Below are positions 10,534-22,785 of a stretch of 60,081 nt of DNA, piece by piece; positions within the stretch are counted from its first letter, which is position 1; each line of letters begins with the position of its first letter. This DNA is from Thermodesulfovibrio sp. N1 (GTDB taxonomy: Bacteria; Nitrospirota; Thermodesulfovibrionia; Thermodesulfovibrionales; Thermodesulfovibrionaceae), in assembly GCF_001707915.1 (NCBI RefSeq), contig NZ_MAVV01000006.1, positions 1 to 60,081 on the forward strand, given 5' to 3'. The notes below the pieces were generated by a model. That model was given only the letters and a program-made list of their open reading frames with translations. It made no database searches and was not told the origin of the DNA. A program made the position numbers and the translations under genes.

Positions 10534-11305
10534 TATTTATAAACTCTTCAATACCCACCTGTGTTCGTAACATATCATAAAAAATCTTTCCAATATGAAA
10601 TAAATTTTCCGTATCTGCCTTATTATAAGAGATTAAACGTTCAAGACTATCTATACTACCATTTAAATAGGCTTTCCACAGTCTTACAGCATCATATCCA
10701 TTAAGTCCTTTAAGCTCGTCTTCTCTTTCAATCAGAAACATAGTTTCAAGTTTTTTCAGTCCCCCTTGAATTCCTAATCTTTTACCTGCAAAAAAGAGAT
10801 CAAAATGGGGAATGTGTTCAATCTTTAAGTTAGGAAACTCCTTTTTCAAAAAGGGTATGTCAAAGATAGTACCATAAAAAGTAATTAAAAATTTGTGTTC
10901 GTTAATGGCTTCCTGAAGTGTCTCTTCCGTAAGATTTTCTCCTTTAACCAATGCTTTATATCCATTTACTGAATACAACCCAACAACAGTAACATATCCA
11001 CCCTTTTCTGGTGTCAGCCCGCTTGTTTCTATGTCAAGACATACTGCCTCAGATATAAATTCTTCAAAAAGTCGCCAATGTTCTCTTTTTTTTAAATTTC
11101 TGGCAAAAAAATAGCAATCTTTACAAAGCAAAGCATCATAGGCTCGGCGGAGAAATTCATCATAATTTTTTTTCTTTTCCCATTCTATATCTAAAACTTC
11201 AACACAATTAAAAAAGTCTTCCCATGTAAGAACTCCTTGTCTCCAAAGCCTTCGCTCTCTTTTTTCTCCAATTCCATCAAGAAGTATAAAAGTATTTTTA
11301 ATCAT
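10499..11305 (-). CDS. YprB-like RNase H-fold exonuclease
   Basis: Protein of 268 aa with a DnaQ/RNase H-like 3'-5' exonuclease fold. The first acidic motif is CLDIETSG (near residue 92). It is followed by the characteristic TFYGTIFDIPFLKKEFP and HFDLFFAGKRLG, and by the closing YNKADTENL with its Asp. This order matches the ribonuclease H-like domain of the YprB family. The N-terminal 85 residues include a DGIGEKRERRLWRQGV helix-hairpin-like segment. The biological role is not established. It is divergent from pabC (84 bp gap) and overlaps the Xer gene by 35 nt. Confidence 0.8.
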   Translation of the reverse strand: MIKNTFILLDGIGEKRERRLWRQGVLTWEDFFNCVEVLDIEWEKKKNYDEFLRRAYDALLCKDCYFFARNLKKREHWRLFEEFISEAVCLDIETSGLTPEKGGYVTVVGLYSVNGYKALVKGENLTEETLQEAINEHKFLITFYGTIFDIPFLKKEFPNLKIEHIPHFDLFFAGKRLGIQGGLKKLETMFLIEREDELKGLNGYDAVRLWKAYLNGSIDSLERLISYNKADTENLFHIGKIFYDMLRTQVGIEEFINNGKYRSSQKVS

Positions 11306-11388
11306 GTTTTTATTATATTAAGCTTGAGAAAATTTAGACAAGTTATAAAAAATTTTACTCGTGAGGCAAAAACATTTAAAATAAACAT

Positions 11389-12129
11389 ATGCAACTTAGA
11401 ACACTTCTTTATGGAGAAGGAATTTTTGAAACAATACTTTGGCGTGGTAGAACAAAAAAACTTTATAGACATTATGAAAGGCTAAGGTCATCAGCTCAAT
11501 TTTTCCAAATTCCTTGTCCAGATTTTGAAAGTTTCTGTAATTTTATTGAGGAAAAAACAGAAAATAGAAAAAATTTATATGTTAAGTTTTGTCTTCTTTC
11601 AAAGGGAGAAAGTCTTTTTTATGCAACACCGGAACAGTCAGAGGTTTTAATTATTGCAAAGGAATACAATCCTGTAAAAAAACCTCAAAGACTTTGTATA
11701 TCAAATATTAAAAGACATAGTTCCGATCCTGTTATATATCATAAGACAATTAATTATCTTCAAAACATTCTTATAAAAAGACAAGCTCTTAAAAACGGAT
11801 TTGACGATGCGATTATTCTTAATGAAAGGGATGAAATTACAGAATGCTCCTCTTCAAATATTTTACTTTTTAAAGATGATACGTTTTTTACGCCTTACAG
11901 AGAGTGTGGACTTTTACTTGGAACAACTTTAAAGACACTCATGGATAAATTTGAGATAAAAGAAGCAAAAATCAAAATTGAGGATTTATTTCGATATTCC
12001 GCTATTTTTATTTTAAATAGTTTAGTTGGTGTCCTACCAGTATGTAAAATAATTGATAAAGAATTTTCCTATGATGAAAATCTTATTAATTATCTAAACT
12101 CATTAATTGACGAGGAAAATAGTATCTAA
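11389..12129 (+). CDS. pabC: Aminodeoxychorismate lyase / class IV aminotransferase
   Basis: PLP-dependent fold-type IV enzyme (246 aa), assigned as 4-amino-4-deoxychorismate lyase (pyruvate plus p-aminobenzoate, folate pathway). The N-terminus RTLLYGEGIFETILWRGRTKKLYRHYERL is typical of class IV enzymes. The PLP lysine is probably in YHKTINYLQN, and the motif NERDEITECSSSNIL matches the conserved E..SSN. It abuts pabB with no gap (stop at 12129, ATG at 12130), and this neighbour decides the function over branched-chain or D-amino-acid aminotransferase. No clear Shine-Dalgarno is visible. Confidence 0.85.
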   Translation: MQLRTLLYGEGIFETILWRGRTKKLYRHYERLRSSAQFFQIPCPDFESFCNFIEEKTENRKNLYVKFCLLSKGESLFYATPEQSEVLIIAKEYNPVKKPQRLCISNIKRHSSDPVIYHKTINYLQNILIKRQALKNGFDDAIILNERDEITECSSSNILLFKDDTFFTPYRECGLLLGTTLKTLMDKFEIKEAKIKIEDLFRYSAIFILNSLVGVLPVCKIIDKEFSYDENLINYLNSLIDEENSI

Positions 12130-13182
12130 ATGCGTTTGATTCTTTCTGGAGAGTGGTTTAAAAAAAAAGGTTTTTATGAGGCTCATATTGAAAGTGTAAG
12201 TTTTTACAATAGTTTGTTGGATATTGGGGAAATACCTGCATTATCCTTTGTTGTTTTTTCCTTTGACCTTTCTGGTGAAACACTCAATTTGAATCTAAAA
12301 GAAACAGAATTTCCAAAGATTATAGTGATAAAAATTAAAAAAATTAAAAAACTCTTCGAAGTTAACAAAACACCGATATTTTTAAAATTAAAAAGTCAAA
12401 CATTAAAGAATAGCGATTTTAAATTAGGTGTCTTAAAAATTAAAAATTTAATAAAGGAAGGAACTGTCTATCAAATAAACCTAACCAACAGATTTGACTT
12501 TTACCTTTCTGGCGATCCTTTAGCATTATTTTTAAATTTTTACACAAATCAGCCTGTTCCCTATGGATTCTATCTTGATTTAGATCAATTTTATATTATA
12601 AGTGGCTCAATGGAGCTTTTCCTTGAGAAAAAAGGTTTTATCCTAAAAAGTAAACCCATCAAAGGAACATCTAAAAATTTAAATTTTCTTAAATTAAGTG
12701 AAAAGGACAGAGCAGAAAATCTTATGATAACAGACATGATGAGAAACGACATTGGAAAGATTGCTCAAATTGGAAGTGTTAAAGTCACTGAGCTTTTTAA
12801 AATAAAAAAATACAGGACTCTTTATCAGATGTATTCAACTGTTGAAGGATTTTCAGAAAAATCAATTATTGATATAATAAAAGCAACCTTTCCACCTGCA
12901 AGCGTCACTGGAGCACCTAAAAGAAAAGCAGTAGAGATGATAGATAATCTTGAACCCCATGCTCGTGGATACTACTGCGGATGTGCAGGGATTGTAGAAA
13001 ATGAAACAGATTTTACCCTTTCTGTACTAATAAGAACCGCGGTAGGAAAAGAAAATCATCTTTCTTACTATGCAGGTTGCGGTATTGTCTGGGATTCTAA
13101 TCCCGAACAAGAACTTTCCGAGCTTTATTTAAAAGTTAAAGCTTTTTATAGCCCTTGTCATTCTCAAGTAAAAAATAAATAA
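12130..13182 (+). CDS. pabB: Aminodeoxychorismate synthase component I
   Basis: Chorismate-binding enzyme (350 aa), aminating chorismate to 4-amino-4-deoxychorismate with a PabA glutaminase that is not in this window. The KPIKGT motif with Lys (about residue 178) distinguishes PabB from anthranilate synthase. Also present are DMMRNDIGKIAQIGSVKV, PPASVTGAPKRKAVEMID and the closing YYAGCGIVWDSNPEQE. The last ten residues (SPCHSQVKNK) are odd. A second copy of the 3' end of the gene lies after tupC and continues differently, so the original terminus may have been altered here. It runs directly on from pabC. Confidence 0.92.
   Translation: MRLILSGEWFKKKGFYEAHIESVSFYNSLLDIGEIPALSFVVFSFDLSGETLNLNLKETEFPKIIVIKIKKIKKLFEVNKTPIFLKLKSQTLKNSDFKLGVLKIKNLIKEGTVYQINLTNRFDFYLSGDPLALFLNFYTNQPVPYGFYLDLDQFYIISGSMELFLEKKGFILKSKPIKGTSKNLNFLKLSEKDRAENLMITDMMRNDIGKIAQIGSVKVTELFKIKKYRTLYQMYSTVEGFSEKSIIDIIKATFPPASVTGAPKRKAVEMIDNLEPHARGYYCGCAGIVENETDFTLSVLIRTAVGKENHLSYYAGCGIVWDSNPEQELSELYLKVKAFYSPCHSQVKNK
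13011..13149 (+). repeat. Direct repeat copy 1: 3' end of pabB, upstream of tupABC
   Basis: These 139 bases of pabB recur without gaps at 15564-15702, in the same orientation, on the far side of tupABC. By eye about 130 of 139 positions agree, and the final stretch up to GCTTTTTAT is nearly identical. Similarity stops abruptly after GCTTTTTAT in both copies. Confidence 0.9.
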
Positions 13183-13249
13183 TTAAGTAGGAAAGCTTAT
13201 TATGTAAACTCAGGTTGGAGACAAAACTGGAGAATTAATAAGGAGTAAA

Positions 13250-14056
13250 ATGAAAATCTTACTGGCCATTGTATTTTCATTATTTATTTTGGCAAATGCA
13301 GCAGTAGCTCAGCAAAATGTAATTGTTCTTGCAACAACCACTTCAGTGGAAAACTCTGGATTACTCAGTCATATTTTACCATTATTTGAGAAAAAAACAG
13401 GTATCAAAGTCAAAGTTATTGCAAGGGGTACAGGTGCAGCAATTGAGATGGGTAAAAGAGGAGATGCGGATGTTGTTTTTGCCCATGCAAAGGAACTTGA
13501 GCTTGAAGCTTTAAAAAAGGGCTATTTTATAAACCGTCATGATGTTTGTTATAATGATTTTATTATTGTAGGACCTAAAAATGACCCAGCAAAAATAAAA
13601 GAAATTAAAAAATCAGTAGATGCCTTTAAAAGAATTGCTTTATCTCAGAGCTTTTTTATTTCAAGGGGAGATAAATCTGGAACTCATATGAAGGAATTAT
13701 CATTGTGGCAGAGGGCAAAAATTGAACCAAAGGGACAAAAATGGTATCTTGAAGCAGGTCAGGGAATGGAAAAAACTTTAAGAATTGCAAATGAAAAACA
13801 GGCATATACACTTACTGACAGAGGAACATGGCTTGCAATAAAAGATAAGCATGACCTAACAATACTATTTCAGGGAGATCCTTTTCTATTTAATCAATAC
13901 GGTGTTATGGCAGTAAATCCGCAAAAGCATAAACATGTAAAATATAAAGAAGCTATGGAGTTTGTAAACTGGATAATTTCAAAGGAAGGACAAAATGCCA
14001 TAGCATCTTTTAAGGATAAATTCGGAAATCAACTTTTTATTCCTAATGCAAGATGA
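13250..14056 (+). CDS. tupA: Tungstate ABC transporter, substrate-binding protein
   Basis: Periplasmic binding protein (268 aa) with a cleavable signal peptide (MKILLAIVFSLFILANAAVAQ). The mature protein starts with the TupA oxyanion motif ATTTSVENSGLL, and continues with FEKKTGIKVKVIARGTGAAIEMGKRGDADVVFAHA and FISRGDKSGTHMKE. These match TupA rather than ModA and predict high-affinity tungstate binding. An AAGGAG site lies 5 nt before the ATG. It overlaps tupB by 4 nt. Tungsten uptake fits anaerobic thermophiles that use tungsten-pterin oxidoreductases. Molybdate as an additional ligand cannot be excluded. Confidence 0.92.
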   Translation: MKILLAIVFSLFILANAAVAQQNVIVLATTTSVENSGLLSHILPLFEKKTGIKVKVIARGTGAAIEMGKRGDADVVFAHAKELELEALKKGYFINRHDVCYNDFIIVGPKNDPAKIKEIKKSVDAFKRIALSQSFFISRGDKSGTHMKELSLWQRAKIEPKGQKWYLEAGQGMEKTLRIANEKQAYTLTDRGTWLAIKDKHDLTILFQGDPFLFNQYGVMAVNPQKHKHVKYKEAMEFVNWIISKEGQNAIASFKDKFGNQLFIPNAR

Positions 14057-14766
14057 ACTCTATTTTAGAATCCTTTAAACAGGCATTTTATCTTATTCTG
14101 CATCTTGATAGAGAACTTTTAGAGATAATACTTTTGTCTCTCAAAGTTTCAGGCACAGCTCTTGCAATTGCAACCCTAACAGGCTTTCCTGCGGGTGCAT
14201 TGCTTGGATTAAAAAATTTTTTTGGTAGAAACGCGATTATAACATTGCTTAATACTTTCATGGGGTTGCCTCCTGTGGTTGTTGGATTATTTCTCTATCT
14301 TTTGCTTTCCAGAAGCGGTCCTCTTGGTTTTTTAAGTCTTCTTTATACTCCCTCTGCAATGATTATTGCTCAGAGCATTCTCGCATTTCCCATTGTGGCA
14401 GCAATTACCCATTCATCAATTGTTAAAGTAAATCCTACAGTAAAACTTGCAGCCAAAACTCTTGGAGCCACACCTTTTCAGATAGCTCTGACAATGATAA
14501 GAGAAACAAGATATGGAATAATGGCTGGAGTCTGTGCAGCACTTGGAAGAGTAATGGCTGAGGTTGGAGCAATACTTATTGTTGGAGGAAATATAGCAGG
14601 ATACACCCGTGTAATGACAACTACTATTGCCCTTGAAACAGACAAAGGCAATTTTGAGCTTGCTATGGCTCTTGGGATAATACTTCTTTGTATTTCTTTC
14701 ATAATAAACATTATCTTATTTTCTATTCAGAAAAAAGGAACAAAGGAGTCCAGCCAGTGGCTTTAA
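14053..14766 (+). CDS. tupB: Tungstate ABC transporter, permease
   Basis: Inner membrane permease (237 aa) with five to six hydrophobic segments. The cytoplasmic EAA loop reads KLAAKTLGATPFQIALTMIRETRYGIMAG. The family-typical segments GLPPVVVGLFLYLLLSRSGPLG and GRVMAEVGAILIVGGNIAGYTRVMTT are conserved in TupB. It starts with an ATGA overlap with tupA and its 3' end overlaps the GTG start of tupC by 10 nt, so the three genes are translationally linked. Confidence 0.92.
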   Translation: MNSILESFKQAFYLILHLDRELLEIILLSLKVSGTALAIATLTGFPAGALLGLKNFFGRNAIITLLNTFMGLPPVVVGLFLYLLLSRSGPLGFLSLLYTPSAMIIAQSILAFPIVAAITHSSIVKVNPTVKLAAKTLGATPFQIALTMIRETRYGIMAGVCAALGRVMAEVGAILIVGGNIAGYTRVMTTTIALETDKGNFELAMALGIILLCISFIINIILFSIQKKGTKESSQWL

Positions 14767-15455
14767 GTTTAATAATTTCAAATATTAAAAAATCTTACAA
14801 AGATAAAAAAGTTCTTGATGGTTGTTCCTTTTCATTTGAACAAAGCGGAGTATATGTTTTAATGGGACCAAATGGTTCAGGAAAATCAACTCTTTTAAGA
14901 ATTTGCGCACTTTTAGAAAGTCCTGACGATGGTGAAATTATTTATTATGAAGACGGAAAAGTTGTTGAGAATAATCTAAATTTAAGAAGAAGGATTACAC
15001 TACTATTGCCAAATATTGGAATTTTCAACACAACAGTTTTTAAAAATGTTGCCTACGGATTAAAAATAAGAGGGATGAATAAAGGAGAAATAAAAGAACG
15101 AGTTGAAAAAGCTCTTGATTTTGTTGGATTACTTCATAAAAAGAAGCAAAATGCTCTCAGTTTATCTAGCGGAGAAGCAAAAAGAATGGGGATTGCAAGA
15201 GCAATTGTTTTAGAGCCCGAATTTTTATTTCTTGATGAGCCAACAGCCTCAGTGGATCAGGAAAACACGGAAATAATTGAAAACATAATTACTCAGTTAA
15301 AACAAAGGCTTAATTCAATAATCATAATGGCAACACATGATTATCAATCAGCAAAAAGAACTGGGGATATTCTTCTTTTTCTTGAAAAAGGAAAACTAAC
15401 CCGAACTTCAGTTTGCTCTGAAAGCCCCTTTCAACTCTTACAGGGCATGCTCTGA
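14757..15455 (+). CDS. tupC: Tungstate ABC transporter, ATP-binding protein
   Basis: ABC ATPase (232 aa). Walker A is GPNGSGKST, the signature is LSSGEAKRMGIARA, Walker B is FLFLDEPTASVD, and the switch His is in ATHDYQSA. I place the start at GTG 14757, which gives ALSLIISNIKKSYK and has AAAGGAG 8 nt upstream. An earlier in-frame start at 14688 would add a stretch overlapping tupB with no family match. The last residues (CSESPFQLLQGML) are encoded at the edge of a palindromic repeat that begins near the stop, so the C-terminus may be repeat-derived. Confidence 0.9.
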   Translation: MALSLIISNIKKSYKDKKVLDGCSFSFEQSGVYVLMGPNGSGKSTLLRICALLESPDDGEIIYYEDGKVVENNLNLRRRITLLLPNIGIFNTTVFKNVAYGLKIRGMNKGEIKERVEKALDFVGLLHKKKQNALSLSSGEAKRMGIARAIVLEPEFLFLDEPTASVDQENTEIIENIITQLKQRLNSIIIMATHDYQSAKRTGDILLFLEKGKLTRTSVCSESPFQLLQGML

Positions 15456-15474
15456 GCAAAGTCGAATGGCTCAG
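15452..15474. repeat. CTGAGC...GCTCAG hairpin repeat after tupC
   Basis: The sequence from the tupC stop onward holds an inverted repeat, CTGAGC at 15452-15457 and GCTCAG at 15469-15474, with AAAGTCGAATG between. The wording resembles the widespread CTGAGCAAAGTCGAA class of bacterial palindromic repeats. The following 15475-15520 continues in the same style (TTCGTGGCATCGAACTTCTC). It lies exactly between tupC and the pabB remnant, and no T-run follows, so a terminator role is unlikely. Confidence 0.55.
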
Positions 15475-15560
15475 GACGGTACTTCGTGGCATCGAACTTC
15501 TCAGAAGGGCAGTATGAAGGAAAGACAACTTTTCTTTAATCGGCAATTTAAGAAATTAAC

Positions 15561-15729
15561 TGATTTTACTCTTTCTGTTATAATAAGAACCGCTGTAGGA
15601 AAAGAAAATCTTCTTCCCTACTACGCAGGTTGCGGTATTGTCTGGGATTCTAATCCCGAACAAGAACTTTCCGAGCTTTATTTAAAAGTCAAAGCTTTTT
15701 ATTTAAAAGATGGTATCTTAAAAAAATAA
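15561..15729 (+). pseudogene. pabB 3' fragment (second direct repeat copy)
   Basis: The frame encodes TDFTLSVIIRTAVGKENLL, then PYYAGCGIVWDSNPEQE, then a tail KAFYLKDGILKK before a stop at 15729. This matches the last 50 or so residues of PabB with only three substitutions across the 139 nt core (L to I, H to L, S to P); the other differences are silent. Nothing of the remaining 300 residues of PabB precedes it. The open frame extends back only to 15466, through repeat sequence. I read it as a remnant from duplication or recombination around tupABC. Its tail may be the ancestral pabB terminus. Confidence 0.85.
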
Positions 15730-15946
15730 TTCAAGTATATTTTTTTGTTATTCTTACTTTGATATAAAAAGTTTGAATATTAGACAATCAAAAAAATTTT
15801 TTCACTACATCTTTTGTCTCGATTAAATAACTTTAAAAGAAAATATTCAAGATCACAATTTTTTAAAATTAAAGGATTAAGAATGAAAATTACTTCAAAA
15901 ATGGACATAAGTAAGATATAATAAAAATATGTGGAGAGTATAAATA
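15730..15946. other. AT-rich intergenic region before the restriction island
   Basis: This stretch is very AT-rich and holds no open frame I can support. Together with the pabB remnant it makes up the 491 bp between tupC and the restriction nuclease. Its only clear signal is the promoter at 15894-15922. I see no terminator, tRNA or attachment site. Confidence 0.6.
15894..15922 (+). promoter_or_regulatory. Likely sigma-70 promoter of the restriction-modification operon
   Basis: TTCAAA (15894-15899) is separated by 17 nt from a perfect TATAAT (15917-15922), which lies 24 nt before the nuclease ATG at 15947. A GGAGAG-like ribosome site falls between. No controller-protein gene or C-box is visible. 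Confidence 0.5.
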
Positions 15947-16579
15947 ATGTCTAATCCATTAATAGAAATATTCGAAGATGAAAAACTTGTAGAGAAGATT
16001 AAAAGACGGTTACCATATTTATTTCAACTTGCAGAATTAGAAAGTTCACGAGCAGGAAAAACAGGAATGGAAGTTGGTTCGCTTCGTGAAAAAATCATCG
16101 TAGCGTTACTAATTTATAAATTTGGCAAAGAAAATGTAGAAACTGAAATCCCTATTACTGAACCAGAAGTAGATGTAAAATTATTTGGAAAACCGATATC
16201 TATAAAAACAATCACAGGTAAAAAGTTAGCAGGAGTTAAACTCATATGGACAGTAGACCCACATAAAGCAAAAGAATTCCATAATAACTATTATCCATAT
16301 TGCGATATTCTACTTGTTCAAATTAACTGGCACAGTACAGGAGGATTTTATTATATACCCTTAGAAGTACAAAGAAAACTTTTTGATAAAGTTGGTAGAG
16401 AAAATTATATCAGACTTCCAAAGCCCGGAACAAATCCAAGAGGTGTCGAAATAACTAAAGAAGCATTGTTTAGAGTGGTGAAAGATAGTGACACCAAAAG
16501 AATTGAAATTAATTGGCAGAGAAAGGAAATAGAATCAAACGCATACAAAAAATGGGTTGACCTTTGGATGGAGGACTAA
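15947..16579 (+). CDS. Type II restriction endonuclease, probably ThaI-like
   Basis: Protein of 210 aa directly followed by a DNA methyltransferase gene, with ATG 16580 next to its stop. The middle has a PD-(D/E)XK-like arrangement: an acidic segment TEPEVDVKLFG and then PISIKTITG (about residues 68-88), where Asp and Lys would be catalytic. The N-terminal segment LPYLFQLAELESSRAGKTG, with MEVGSLREKI behind it, resembles what I remember of the ThaI family, whose prototype cuts CGCG. That family assignment is from memory and unsearched. The restriction role itself is well supported by the methyltransferase partner and the nuclease motif. Confidence 0.7.
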   Translation: MSNPLIEIFEDEKLVEKIKRRLPYLFQLAELESSRAGKTGMEVGSLREKIIVALLIYKFGKENVETEIPITEPEVDVKLFGKPISIKTITGKKLAGVKLIWTVDPHKAKEFHNNYYPYCDILLVQINWHSTGGFYYIPLEVQRKLFDKVGRENYIRLPKPGTNPRGVEITKEALFRVVKDSDTKRIEINWQRKEIESNAYKKWVDLWMED

Positions 16580-17524
16580 ATGCGAAATACTCCAAGAAAA
16601 AACGGAACAAAAACAAGTACTTTTGGTTCTCCTGGAAGAATCAATCATGACTCCACCTCTTTTTATACAAGTAGATTATACGAAGGTTTGCCCAAAGAGG
16701 AACCTGTCAAATATGTTGAAAATCTAGTCCCTCCAGAATTTATAGATAAAATCCTTTGTAAATCAAGTGAAAAGATGAATGAATTGCCTGATAATAGCAT
16801 TCATCTCATGGTTACCTCTCCACCTTATAATGTAGGGAAAGAATATGATGAGAATCTTACCTTGAATGAATATAGAGGATTCTTAAAAAGGGTGTGGAGC
16901 GAGGTTAAAAGAGTTCTTGTTCCGGGTGGCAGGGCATGCATCAATATTGCCAATCTTGGAAGAAAACCATACATTCCACTTCATGCTTTTATCATAGAAG
17001 ATATGCTTGATTTAGGATTTTTAATGCGGGGTGAAATCATATGGAATAAGGCATCAAGTGGCAGTCCTTCTACTGCTTGGGGTAGCTGGCTTTCTGCCAA
17101 AAATCCGACTTTAAGAGACATTCATGAATACATATTGGTTTTTTCTAAAGGAAGTTTTTCAAGGGAAAATCTCGGAAGAAAAAACACAATTTCTAAGGAG
17201 GAGTTTCTTGAATTTACAAAAAGTGTATGGACATTTCCTGCAGAATCAGCCACAAAAGTGGGTCACCCTGCACCTTTTCCTTTAGAGTTGCCTTATAGAT
17301 TGATTCAACTTTATACCTTTGAAGGAGAGATTGTCTTAGACCCATTTATAGGAAGCGGACAAACCGCGATTTCAGCACTTAAAACCCGGAGACATTATGT
17401 TGGATACGAAATAAACGAAAAATATGTAAAATTAGCAGAAGAGCGAATAAAAAAGTTCTCTCTTGTTTTTAATACTCCCAAATTATTTGAATTTAAAGAG
17501 GAAAAGGATAATAAAAATGGCTAA
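16580..17524 (+). CDS. DNA methyltransferase, beta-class (N4-cytosine or N6-adenine)
   Basis: Amino-methyltransferase (314 aa) of the restriction-modification pair. The catalytic motif IV TSPPYNVG (about residue 81) comes before the SAM-binding motif I DPFIGSGQT (about residue 253), which is the circular order of the beta class. SPPY rather than DPPY favours N4-cytosine. The target-recognition region lies between, with WNKASSGSPSTAWGSW. The protein is expected to protect the site cut by the preceding nuclease. The first 50 residues (RNTPRKNGTKTSTFGSPGR) are an extension before the core. It is followed by a 218 bp gap and mrr. Confidence 0.88.
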   Translation: MRNTPRKNGTKTSTFGSPGRINHDSTSFYTSRLYEGLPKEEPVKYVENLVPPEFIDKILCKSSEKMNELPDNSIHLMVTSPPYNVGKEYDENLTLNEYRGFLKRVWSEVKRVLVPGGRACINIANLGRKPYIPLHAFIIEDMLDLGFLMRGEIIWNKASSGSPSTAWGSWLSAKNPTLRDIHEYILVFSKGSFSRENLGRKNTISKEEFLEFTKSVWTFPAESATKVGHPAPFPLELPYRLIQLYTFEGEIVLDPFIGSGQTAISALKTRRHYVGYEINEKYVKLAEERIKKFSLVFNTPKLFEFKEEKDNKNG

Positions 17525-17742
17525 ATGGCATATAAAAAGCATAAAATATATGTGGTTTATTGACACTACCCCAAATAATTCCATAACTATCAGGGGGGTT
17601 TTTATGCTAAGGACAATATTTGATGACAATAAAGGGTAATTTCGGTTTTTCTATCGGAAATTGTAGTAATCTTATGACTATTGTCATGAATAGAAATTTG
17701 TTTAAAATAACTTAATGAATTTGAAAAATTTCTAAAAATGAT
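17525..17742. other. Intergenic region between methyltransferase and mrr, with repeat motif
   Basis: It contains the motif TTTTTCTATCGGAAATTG around 17646-17664, one member of the dispersed TCTATCGGNAATT family. There AATTTC and GAAATT arms make a small inverted repeat. A tiny frame of 11 codons at 17604-17639 follows GGGGGG but has no family features, so I do not call it a gene. Confidence 0.5.
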
Positions 17743-18656
17743 ATGATACCCACTTATGAAAATATAATGTTACCTTTATTAAGATTACTTGGTGATGGAA
17801 ATGAAAGACCTTTTAGTGAATTGGTAAATCAGTTGGCTGACTATTTCAAACTTACTCAAGAAGAAAGAGGGAGAAAAGTACCGAGTGGTACTCAATCAAT
17901 TTTTTATGGTCGAGTCAACTGGGCAAAAACATACCTAAAAAAGCAAGACTTTTGGATATTCCTAAAAGAGGATTTATAAAAATCACGCAAAGAGGGATGG
18001 AAATTTTAGAAAAAAAACCAGAGAAAATAGATTATGAAGATCTCGTGAAATATGATGAGTTCAGAGAATGGAGAGAAAAATCTGAAAAAACCTCAAATAA
18101 AATGCAAGTTGAGAAAAGAACATCAATAGAAACACAATCTCCAGAAGAAATAATATCCTTAAAAGTAGAGGAAATTAACAATCTTGTCAAAGATGAGTTA
18201 AAAAATAAAATTGTATCACTCACTCCAGAACAGTTTGAAAAGGTTGTAATTGATATTTTATTAAAAATGGGATATGGTGGTTCTTTTGAAGAGGCAAGTC
18301 AGCATATTGGTAAAAGTCATGATGGAGGAATTGATGGAATTATTAAACAAGATATTCTAGGTTTAGATAATGTATATATTCAGGCTAAACAATGGACAAG
18401 TGGTTCATTTGGCAGGAAAGAACTTCAAGCATTTGTTGGTGCCATTCATGGTAAAGGCAAAAAAGGAGTCTTTATAACTACTTCACAATTTACTAATGAA
18501 TCATTAGAATACGCAAAATCTCTTTCTGATATTAAAATTATTCTAATTGATGGTGATAAGTTGGTTGATTATATGATAAAGTTTAAAATTGGAGTTAAGC
18601 CCTTTAGAATTTATGAAATTTTAAAAATTGATGAAGATTATTTTGAAGAATTTTAA
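17743..18656 (+). pseudogene. mrr: Mrr-type restriction endonuclease with one-base frameshift
   Basis: Two frames join to a 304 aa protein, the same length as E. coli Mrr, a modification-dependent (type IV) nuclease. The N-terminal part (MIPTYENIMLPLLRLLGDG to VNWAKTYLKK) is the Mrr winged-helix domain. The second frame (LLDIPKRGFIKITQRGMEIL onward) completes it and carries the catalytic domain: GKSHDGGIDGIIKQD, then VYIQAKQW, matching the Mrr D...QxK motif. The break is at an A6 run (17937-17942). One more A would restore the frame. In the zero frame the run reads A AAA AAG, the classic dnaX-type slippery heptamer. Sequencing error, true inactivation and -1 slippage are all possible. It belongs to the same defence island as the preceding pair. 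Confidence 0.85.
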
Positions 18657-18661
18657 AATTT

Positions 18662-20203
18662 TTATTTTATCTTTCTCAAAATCTTCTCTAAAAGCTTCTC
18701 TACCTCCTCTACTGTTTTAATATTTATAAGTTTTTGTTCAGGGATTTCGGTTGGTGATTCAAAATTTTCCTTCTGGGCTAAGTAAATCTCCCATCGGGCA
18801 TCAGAAATATCCTGTGTATCTTTCCTCCTCATAAATCTCTCCTTTACAACACTATCAGGTGCAGTACACCATATCCAGTAAATATCTGCAAATCTAAGTT
18901 CCTTCTGAACAATATCCCGATAGACTCTTTCTCTAAATGTAGCATCTAAAACTACATCTCTGCCTTTTTTTAATGTCTCTTTTGCAATCTCTATCATTTT
19001 TTTATAAGTTTTTTCTGTATATTCTTTACTATAAATTCCCTTTTCAAAGGGTTCATAACGATGTTCTGTTGGAGCAATCCCAACAAGATTTTTTCTTACT
19101 ATATCTGAAGGGAGCCATTCTGAAAGAGTTATTTCACTTAATGCTCTTGCAAGGGTTGATTTACCTGTTCCAGAAAGTCCAAATACTACAAAAAGCTTTG
19201 GAACACCTTCTGCATAAATATAAGCAAGGTCAAAATACTTTTGCGCATTTTTTAAAGCTTCCGCTCGTTGTTCTTCTGTAAAAGCTTTATCCATTGAAGT
19301 AAAGCATCCAATTTTACCTCTTACATAGGCACGGTAGCATTTGTAAAAATTAAGAAGCTTCAATAAGTCCCTGTCATCTGATTTTTCAACATATTTTTCC
19401 ACAAAATATTTTGAAAGAGCCTCATAATCATGAAAATCTAAGTCCATACTCAAAAAGGCTATATCAGAGGCAATATCCTGACAGCGAAATCTCTCATTAA
19501 ACTCTATGCAATCATAGATATAAACTTTTTTTAAATCATCAAAGCATATATTGGCAGAGTAGAGATCTCCATGACCTTCACGAATAAAGCCTTCTTTGAT
19601 TCGTTTCTCAAAAAGAGAGGTATTTTCTTTTATAAAATTTCTTGTCCAATTAATGATATGATTATATCTCCATTTATTTAAAGCTTTTCCCACAAAGCCT
19701 TCTGTCTGGGTAAAATTTTCTTCTGTATTAAAAGAAACCGTATCAATAGAGCCAAACTGATTTACTCCTTTACCTGTTCTGACAGACTTATAAAAAGGAA
19801 CGAGTAAATCCACAATTAAATCAATATGTTTCTCTGTTAAAGCTCTGTTTTTTAAAATTTTTTGCATCATGCCATCCTCAGGAAGCCTTTTCATTTTTAC
19901 AGCATATTCAACTGGATTTTCACTGTTTTCAACTTTATATCCATCCTTAGTCAGAGAAATTGGGACTACTCCAAGATATACTTCAGGACAGAATCTTCTG
20001 TTTAGCTCCACCTCTTTTTCACAGTAAAAGCGTCTTAGTTCAAGGGTTGTGAAATCAAGAAATCCAAAGTTCACAGGCTTTTTAATTTTGTAAACTAAAT
20101 CATCAGCTAAGAAAACATAGGAAATATGGGTCTGAATTAATTTTAATTCCTTTGGTTTATGAGAAAAAGACTCTCTTTTAAGTTCCTCTGCCCAGTTAAC
20201 CAT
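18662..20203 (-). CDS. Fused APH-like kinase and P-loop ATP-binding protein
   Basis: Protein of 513 aa with two parts. The N-terminal about 330 residues resemble an aminoglycoside phosphotransferase/choline kinase fold, with the Brenner-like motif HGDLYSANICFDD and YDCIEFNERFRCQDIASD behind it. The C-terminal part is a small nucleoside-kinase-like P-loop domain with Walker A GLSGTGKST (about residue 345) and DATFRERVYRD. This architecture is widespread as 'bifunctional aminoglycoside phosphotransferase/ATP-binding protein', but the substrate is unknown. It is not evidence of drug resistance. Its ATG overlaps the lhgO stop (TAATG), so the two are translationally coupled. Confidence 0.8.
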   Translation of the reverse strand: MVNWAEELKRESFSHKPKELKLIQTHISYVFLADDLVYKIKKPVNFGFLDFTTLELRRFYCEKEVELNRRFCPEVYLGVVPISLTKDGYKVENSENPVEYAVKMKRLPEDGMMQKILKNRALTEKHIDLIVDLLVPFYKSVRTGKGVNQFGSIDTVSFNTEENFTQTEGFVGKALNKWRYNHIINWTRNFIKENTSLFEKRIKEGFIREGHGDLYSANICFDDLKKVYIYDCIEFNERFRCQDIASDIAFLSMDLDFHDYEALSKYFVEKYVEKSDDRDLLKLLNFYKCYRAYVRGKIGCFTSMDKAFTEEQRAEALKNAQKYFDLAYIYAEGVPKLFVVFGLSGTGKSTLARALSEITLSEWLPSDIVRKNLVGIAPTEHRYEPFEKGIYSKEYTEKTYKKMIEIAKETLKKGRDVVLDATFRERVYRDIVQKELRFADIYWIWCTAPDSVVKERFMRRKDTQDISDARWEIYLAQKENFESPTEIPEQKLINIKTVEEVEKLLEKILRKIK

Positions 20204-21387
20204 TATTTTTTCTCCATAAAGTATTCTTTTACAATAAACTCTGCAAAGGCAAAGGCAGAAGTAAAGGCTGGCGATATTGCATTGAGAATGTGTATTGTTT
20301 TAGACTCCTTTAAAACTACAAAATCCATAACAAGTTCCTTTTTCTTTATATCAATTAGTTGAGGTCTAATACCTACTTTAGAAGACGGTAAAAGGTCATC
20401 AATGGTTATATTTTCAAGCATATCCTTAATATCATCGTAAAATTTTTTCGCTGAATACTTTCTTATCTCCGAAAAGGCATTATTTCTAAATTTCTCATTA
20501 CTCATAAAAAGTAAAAAATCTCTCCAAAGAATTTGTAAACTCTCCAATCCTAAATTGTCAAACATTTTGTAATTTTCTCTTCCTAAGGCAGGTGTTGCAG
20601 TTGGACCAACATAAACTGTTCCATCATAAATTTTAGTAAAATGTACACCTAAAAAGGGGTTTCTTATATCTGGCACAGGATATATATTTCCTTTTACAAG
20701 AAAGTTTTTTTCTTTCCTAAGCTTTTTATACAATCCTTTAAAGGGCAAAATTCTGTAATTTAGCCCTAAGCCAAAACTATGAGCTATTTTATCTGCATAG
20801 GCACCTGCTGAATTTATGAAATATTCAAATTGAATTTTTCCTTGAAATGTTTCTATGTTATTTGAATTAATAAATTTTTTAAAACTTACCCCCTTTAAAA
20901 TTTTTATACCTGCCTCTTTAAGTTCATTTTCAAGGGAAATTAGAATTTCTCTTGGATTAATAATTGCAGTTAAAGGACTATAAAGGGCTTTTTCATATGT
21001 TTTTGCATATGGTTCTATTTCTTTTAAAGTTTTACTGTCAACAAGTTCTACCTCTGCACCATTTTGTTTTGCCCTTTTGTAAAGCTCATAAAGTACTGGC
21101 AATTCTGTTTCCTTTTTTGTAACAATGACCTTACCAGATTCAATTAGGGTGAGTCCTCTTTCTTTGCAATACTGCTTCATAAGCTGATTACCTTTTAAAC
21201 AAAACCTTGCTTTAAGTGTTTCAGGAGTATAATAAATTCCTGCATGTAGTACCCCACTGTTTCTTCCAGAGGCATGTTTGCCCAAATCAGGCTCTTTATC
21301 AAAAATTACAATATCTTTTATTCCTAAATTAAGAATCTCCTTAGCTATTGTAAGCCCTGTTATTCCAGCACCGCAGATTAAAATCAT
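20203..21387 (-). CDS. lhgO: L-2-hydroxyglutarate oxidase/dehydrogenase-like FAD enzyme
   Basis: FAD-dependent oxidoreductase of the DAO fold (394 aa). The dinucleotide-binding start is LICGAGITGLTIAKEILNLG, followed by the LhgO signature KHASGRNSGVLHAGIYY. The central VHFTKIYDGTVYVGPTATPALGRENY and the C-terminal NAISPAFTSAFAFAEF segments also fit. It would oxidise L-2-hydroxyglutarate to 2-oxoglutarate and pass electrons to quinone. It shares a base with the start of the following APH/kinase gene. Upstream is the 291 bp region with the nested repeat. Confidence 0.85.
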   Translation of the reverse strand: MILICGAGITGLTIAKEILNLGIKDIVIFDKEPDLGKHASGRNSGVLHAGIYYTPETLKARFCLKGNQLMKQYCKERGLTLIESGKVIVTKKETELPVLYELYKRAKQNGAEVELVDSKTLKEIEPYAKTYEKALYSPLTAIINPREILISLENELKEAGIKILKGVSFKKFINSNNIETFQGKIQFEYFINSAGAYADKIAHSFGLGLNYRILPFKGLYKKLRKEKNFLVKGNIYPVPDIRNPFLGVHFTKIYDGTVYVGPTATPALGRENYKMFDNLGLESLQILWRDFLLFMSNEKFRNNAFSEIRKYSAKKFYDDIKDMLENITIDDLLPSSKVGIRPQLIDIKKKELVMDFVVLKESKTIHILNAISPAFTSAFAFAEFIVKEYFMEKK

Positions 21388-21470
21388 TTTTTACTGCCTC
21401 TCATGTGCGTACTCTAAGATTTGTATTCATGGTAACTATTTTATATCAAAAATATACAAATTTTATACTT

Positions 21471-21645
21471 TAAAATTGCCGATAGAAAAACACTGATTTT
21501 GTCATTCCGAAGGAGTATGAGCGACTGAGGAATCTCCTCATTTTTCATCAGATAGATTCTTTAATGAGAGATTCCTTAGGGTATTGAACCCCTCGGAATG
21601 ACTGCATAAACGAAATATTGCTTTTATTCTGTATCGGCAATTTTA
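21471..21645. repeat. 175 bp nested inverted-repeat (MITE-like) element
   Basis: The outer ends are a perfect 14 bp inverted repeat: TAAAATTGCCGATA at 21471-21484 and TATCGGCAATTTTA at 21632-21645. Inside is a second palindrome with arms of about 35 nt, 21501-21536 (starting GTCATTCCGAAGG) and 21568-21602 (ending CCTCGGAATGAC), around a short AT-rich loop. It fills most of the gap between the radical SAM gene and lhgO and has no transposase. The outer motif recurs near 15538, 17650, 27778, 28496 and weakly 28880. The inner arm recurs inside iorA. Confidence 0.75.
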
Positions 21646-21678
21646 GGTTATACTTATCTTATTTTTTAAGAAAGGAGT

Positions 21679-22785
21679 TTAATTTTTGCATCTTATCAAA
21701 TGGATATTTCCAATTGAAACATTTTTCAGTCCTGCTTTTAAAGAAGCCTCATGGCAATCTTCAGCTAATTTTTTTGATGTAAGAGGTAGATCACTCATAT
21801 AAAAATGGGGATAAAAGGCAAGTAAACGATAGGGAATTTTAGGATTCAATGAGGCAATAAAATTAGCGATTTTGCTTACTTCTTCGGAATCTATATATCC
21901 AGGGACTAAAAGAGTGCTTGCAATAAGAAGTGGCGGAGATGGTCTTTTGTCAAAAAACTTTGCTACATAGGCAAAATTCTCCAGAGTTCTCCTGTTTGAA
22001 ACTCCTGTTAATGCAATATGAAGAGGCTCATCCCATGCTTTAATATCAAATTTGATACATCCACCAGAAATAAGGCTCAATTCAATCATCTTTTCAAGAT
22101 AAGCTTTATGAACTGATCCATTTGTTTCCCAGCATATTCTTAATATTTTCTCCTTTTTTTCTCTGATAGCTCTTCGGGATGCCTCAAGGGCAAAAACTAT
22201 TTGTGGTGAAGGATCTCCACCAAAGTAGCATATGCAGGATACAGCTGGAGTAATGCTTTTCAATAATTCATCAACTGTTCTTATTCTTGACTTAAAGGTC
22301 TCTTCTTTAAAGTGCCAGTTTTGACAATAAAGGCAATTAAAAGAGCAGGCATGAAAAAATACTGCAAGATTATAATATCCGTATTCAGCTCCTTTGGTAT
22401 AAGCAAAATCTGGATATCCAGAGCCAGTTCCTGCTGGGCAAACCCAATCTGCAACACAGTTTGTTGGAAGAGGATCAAGATACCAGCTAAGTTTTCCATA
22501 GCCATATGGAGGTACAATCAATTTCCCATTTTCATTTTTTCTTAATCCGCAGTATCCATATTCACCAGATGGAATCTTACATTCATTTACGCATATTTTA
22601 CATTGAATTCCTGTCTCTGCCTTTGGTGGAAATGGAGGTAATCCATAAGCAAGTCTACTTTCTTTATGAGATTCTGATGATACTTCTATAGCTTCTTCCG
22701 GATATTTTCTAATACAACTTAAACAAACCCCTGGATATTTAGCAATGTAAGAAGAAGATTCATTACATATTTTACAAACACCCAT
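21679..22785 (-). CDS. Radical SAM protein, pyruvate-formate-lyase-activase-like
   Basis: Radical SAM enzyme (368 aa). The cluster motif CSFNCLYCQNW (CxxxCxxC) sits near residue 148. The N-terminus has extra cysteine pairs (CKIC, CLSC) and then CKICVNECKIPSGEYGYCGLR, typical of the PflA-like/AmrS-related group. GGDPSPQ follows the core, as in activases. No glycyl-radical enzyme is adjacent, so the target is unknown. It starts 6 nt after the rhomboid stop, so the pair is probably cotranscribed. It could belong to the AmmeMemoRadiSam neighbourhood, but the partner proteins are not here. Confidence 0.85.
   Translation of the reverse strand: MGVCKICNESSSYIAKYPGVCLSCIRKYPEEAIEVSSESHKESRLAYGLPPFPPKAETGIQCKICVNECKIPSGEYGYCGLRKNENGKLIVPPYGYGKLSWYLDPLPTNCVADWVCPAGTGSGYPDFAYTKGAEYGYYNLAVFFHACSFNCLYCQNWHFKEETFKSRIRTVDELLKSITPAVSCICYFGGDPSPQIVFALEASRRAIREKKEKILRICWETNGSVHKAYLEKMIELSLISGGCIKFDIKAWDEPLHIALTGVSNRRTLENFAYVAKFFDKRPSPPLLIASTLLVPGYIDSEEVSKIANFIASLNPKIPYRLLAFYPHFYMSDLPLTSKKLAEDCHEASLKAGLKNVSIGNIHLIRCKN

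Follow-up and report, generated by a model that had tools for sequence, protein, structure and literature searches.

Features of the locus

The window analysed is the whole stretch of 60,081 nucleotides of contig NZ_MAVV01000006.1 from Thermodesulfovibrio sp. N1, and all positions refer to it. The genes and repeats described from pabB rightwards are read on the forward strand. The intact pabB gene (12130-13182) encodes 350 amino acids with the tail SPCHSQVKNK; it aligns over its full length with 10 relatives and matches NCBIfam TIGR00553 (E = 4e-75), a match below the curated cut-off. Outside the genus, PabB of this type is found mainly in metagenome-assembled genomes of Aquificota, mostly at 49-58% identity (L139-L180), which suggests an old exchange between thermophiles.

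A stop codon and 67 bp separate pabB from tupABC on the same strand, the only tungstate ABC transporter operon of the assembly (tupA 13250-14056, tupB 14053-14766, tupC about 14757-15455; the operon spans 13250-15455). TupA is a tungstate-binding protein according to its relatives in PDB (3lr1, E = 3e-79), and NCBIfam matches of TupA and TupB support the identity of the operon, though they lie below the curated cut-offs. Binding protein (TupA), permease (TupB) and ATPase (TupC) are encoded in one operon, as expected of a Tup ABC transporter. The interval 13050-16000 yielded no terminator-like site, and in DNA this rich in A+T matches to promoters are uninformative. It is plausible that tup would be transcribed by read-through from the pabCB promoter. 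A scan of 11300-22000 with Rfam gave no match, and the joint at 13150-13240 has no homology elsewhere in the genome.

Downstream of tupC lies the right half (15438-15553) of a dispersed, MITE-like element with terminal inverted repeats, whose left arm is missing. The family has 94 profile matches in this genome, about 30 of them at E below 1e-6, and the inverted ends of full copies are about 170 bp apart. The outer end (..TCGGCAATTT), mapped on 22 copies, is conserved to about five bases beyond TCGGCAATTT. A further family member with TCGGCAATTT ends is located at 21464-21652.

Next follow a truncated second copy of the pabB 3' end (15558-15702) and an alternative pabB tail, LKDGILKK and a stop (15703-15729). 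Genes for a ThaI-family restriction endonuclease (15947-16579; Pfam PF15514, E = 6e-101) and an N6/N4 methyltransferase (16580-17524; PF01555, E = 5e-48) come after it. Between these and mrr, a 16-mer with two mismatches (17648-17663) may be the decayed outer end of a second element in the same orientation, a match that is weak by itself. The type IV restriction gene mrr (17743-18656) is neighbour to AGkin, as in relative G002, and is split by a frameshift into pieces of 78 and 234 amino acids, versus an intact 304 in G002. The frameshift may be a sequencing error, or the methyl-directed nuclease may have been lost after the methyltransferase arrived.

The repeated end of pabB

Ungapped extension gave a direct repeat of 145 nt, in which copy 1, the 3' end of the conserved pabB domain (13005-13149), and copy 2 (15558-15702) are 93% identical. 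The initial annotation had described a 139-bp segment of pabB (13011-13149) recurring at 15564-15702 with about nine substitutions, three of them changing the protein; alignment and an assembly-wide search (1.9 Mb, 116 contigs) bear this out, the shorter version being 94% identical. The search found the pabB end at two places only, the second at E = 8e-56. The initial annotation had also observed that similarity stops at the same base in both copies. This is true, and is explained by the conserved PabB domain ending there (...KAFY).

The tupA start lies 100 bp past copy 1, and the tupC end about 100 bp short of copy 2. The operon was said to lie exactly between the repeats; tupABC does lie there, but so does the half element. 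The outer end of the element falls at about 15553 and similarity to pabB begins at 15549-15558, so that copy 2 is flush with the element end.

An assembly artefact would have to be considered in a draft of 116 contigs, the more so as the copies share identical stretches of up to 65 nt. The copies, however, differ at 10 sites, their flanks differ on both sides, a single contig spans both, and the genome is 99.9% complete with 0.06% contamination, so that this explanation can practically be set aside.

Comparison with related genomes

Relatives show a pabB neighbourhood free of tup. The order in G002 is pabB..mrr-AGkin-lhgO, and in G011 pabB faces AGkin directly; in both, a single pabB end is present and tup is lacking at this place, which provides the comparison with tup-less loci that the initial annotation had proposed. 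Other members of the genus have pabB located elsewhere. No relative examined has both pabB copies together. Neither a shared pabB-tup-fragment layout nor a tup-free locus with both copies, either of which had been named as speaking against an insertion, was found in the relatives examined.

The tup operon was found in nine genomes of the genus at many addresses, and in eight relatives its address is other than here. In G014 tupC abuts trkA; in G004 the operon stands between paaK and trkA, the latter separated from it by an additional ORF. The equivalent point in this genome is the paaK-trkA junction at 94-109, where 14 bp separate the end of paaK from the start of trkA and, in those 14 bp, no remnant of tup was found. 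The window opens with 94 bases that encode the start of trkA; the gene continues on contig C75, which joins this one with no base missing. Since tup stands beside trkA in G014 and G004 but paaK and trkA are joined here, tup moved in this lineage. It now lies 13 kb from the junction, in the orientation opposite to that beside trkA. The position of tup is thus derived, and to this extent the earlier claim of an insertion of tup by recombination at a diverged pabB end holds. G004 also has a truncated paaK beside tup (L084, 4416-5262), another rearrangement joint near tup.

Frequent changes of the tup address in the genus might point to tupABC as an active mobile unit ended by the 145-bp repeats, excised in the manner of a transposon or integron. 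There is, however, no recombinase between the repeats; these consist of the 3' end of a host gene, are absent from the rest of the genome and surround tup in no relative; we regard such a unit as highly improbable.

TupABC of this genome groups with that of G012, G009 and G014, and its identities (84%) are in line with the values for AGkin (78%) and for the SDH-type protease (84-87%), so that no distant import is needed. By our reading of these sequences, tupABC would have been inherited vertically and then relocated. The nearest species are only about 78% identical in the AGkin protein, and the genomes compared include no immediate precursor. TupABC of G012 (L080) is only 83% identical to that of G009, versus 90% for AGkin and 94% for the protease, and this suggests that tup of G012 was replaced from a lineage near this genome.

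A small gene for a ModE-like regulator adjoins tup in five relatives (G009, G012, G014, G001 and G002); a search of this genome did not find it. The separation of tup from this neighbour is likely to have been a side effect of the move. The tup genes and ModE-like regulator of G002 (L085) stand beside exo/xerD, at the place where G012 has pabC-pabB.

Each pabB of the genus carries its own short tail after ...LKVKAFY (EK, KR, NF, SSDL, HQV, RKNF and others). The tail SPCHSQVKNK had been called odd, and insertion at a diverged pabB end was argued in part from it; as all tails differ, neither of the two here is odd in kind and that argument is not supported. Comparison of tails is for the same reason uninformative on which one is ancestral, the check suggested earlier, but the DNA downstream of copy 2 helps: since mrr, AGkin and lhgO, which accompany pabB in G002, lie along it, and AGkin also faces pabB in G011, the copy 2 tail LKDGILKK would be the better candidate for the native end of pabB.

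Divergence between the copies

The copies differ at 10 of 145 nt (nine within the 139), seven differences being synonymous and three changing an amino acid: from copy 1 to copy 2, L>I at 13027, H>L at 13058 and S>P at 13063. When the ten differences were polarised with relatives the outcome was clear at two sites only; copy 2 is derived at two positions that are invariant in the genus (L>I and S>P). Both copies are equally far from all relatives. Either the duplication is therefore more recent than the divergence from all species sampled, or an unsampled close strain supplied one of the copies.

A copy 2 decaying in place would give about 60% non-synonymous changes; with seven of ten synonymous, P is about 0.02-0.08, depending on the assumptions. 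This bears on an origin in place, in which a staggered break, or a duplication associated with inversion (two inversions carrying tup from trkA to pabB and flipping it), was followed by neutral decay of the fragment. Colinearity of the region with G004, which is extensive save for the position and orientation of tup, fits such an event, and inversion-associated duplication is documented elsewhere (Furuta 2011, as cited in PMC8963470). Neutral decay, however, predicts mainly amino acid changes, and two inversions would be needed of which no intermediate was seen; an event of this kind is unlikely. The synonymous-rich pattern together with the two derived sites weakly favours a joint between the alleles of two strains, with some later decay.

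The differences are clustered towards the 5' side, with nine in the first 67 nt and one in the last 78; the stretch without differences, 66 nt, has a permutation P of 0.02. The clustering is perhaps a conversion tract. With an identical run of 65 nt, RecA could possibly delete tup between the copies and restore one intact pabB.

Origin of the arrangement

The locus is no new mobile element but the scar of a local rearrangement in which tup changed its place within this lineage. For how the scar arose, the reading we prefer, and hold at about an even chance, is that tup moved to the pabB 3' end by recombination and thereby doubled that end. The single tupABC operon would have come, probably, from a place next to trkA some 13 kb distant, and its insertion would have duplicated the last 145 bp or so of the pabB coding domain. 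The full-length gene on the left would then have acquired a new tail; the 3' end on the right would have retained the old tail and the downstream DNA with the restriction genes, mrr and AGkin, and become a pseudogene. Recombination, in which DNA of a related strain probably took part, would have made the joint, one junction being in pabB or close to it and the other at the end of the dispersed element. The step between strains is weakly favoured by the synonymous-rich divergence, and the arrival of tup itself, rather than of a segment with the pabB fragment and restriction genes, may have made the duplication.

Several observations count against this reading. The clustered differences are not predicted by a simple two-allele model, and tup has no homology-marked breakpoints of its own. 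As for tup being the inserted unit, an element end marks the start of copy 2 and may also mark the end of the segment formed by copy 2 and the restriction genes.

The last point allows a different unit, 15554-17663, consisting of another strain's pabB 3' end and a ThaI-type restriction system, to have been joined next to element ends, with a tup operon already in place behind pabB and upstream of the joint. The repeat would then mark the import of the restriction genes and flank tup by chance. The left boundary of the fragment is indeed flush with an element end, a second end possibly precedes mrr, and the divergence is rich in synonymous changes, of the kind expected between two functional alleles. 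The flush element end and the synonymous-rich divergence fit this import as well as they fit duplication by the arrival of tup. Mobility of restriction-modification genes, and their link to rearrangements, are known (PMC3031569), and ThaI-type genes were not found in the local neighbourhoods of relatives examined. Against this, two independent events are required, the match for the right-hand element end, a 16-mer, is weak, and no donor was found with pabB directly followed by restriction genes. We consider such an import less likely, though quite possible.

With relocation of tup as the preferred account, the locus offers a readable case of gene-order reshuffling in a lineage of thermophilic sulfate reducers, in which a partial gene duplication, an element end and an operon parted from its likely regulator come together. 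The scar is informative and can serve as a marker when strains are compared, but the genome plasticity that it records is of an ordinary kind and leaves the general picture unchanged. A bolder extension would have dispersed elements in Thermodesulfovibrio serve as joints that paste operons and restriction systems onto gene ends, tup being here freed from ModE-like control and placed, revertibly, behind folate genes; we offer this as something of a long shot.

Comparison with known systems

A transposon, which would bring a transposase or recombinase, terminal inverted repeats and a short target duplication, was considered and rejected: only tupABC is carried between the repeats, which are direct 145-nt copies of a host gene end. 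MITE-like elements resemble the locus in that the sequence from tupC to the fragment is an end of one such family, of which this genome has about 30 good copies, but the copy here is without its left arm and cannot alone account for the 145-bp repeat.

In DNA duplication associated with inversion (Furuta 2011, in the account given by PMC8963470), a short duplication likewise lies at a rearrangement joint, and tup is flipped relative to its place on the trkA side in relatives. The duplicates here, however, are in direct orientation, and the arrangement would take two inversions.

The pattern also resembles insertion with long target duplication (Nobusato et al. 2000, according to PMC3031569 and PMC1643837). 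As in that system, a block of genes lies between long direct repeats of host DNA, the 145-nt copies bracketing 13150-15557; one copy corresponds to the ordinary locus, and restriction-modification genes are nearby. The block here, in contrast, is a transporter operon. The repeats of that system are near-identical at birth; the present copies are 93% identical with mostly synonymous differences, and the empty-site genomes (G002 and G011) are other species with different tails, not strains. Inserted restriction-modification genes are frequent in it, though not obligatory; because the ThaI-type genes (15947-17524) sit outside the repeats, the locus was not assigned to this class.
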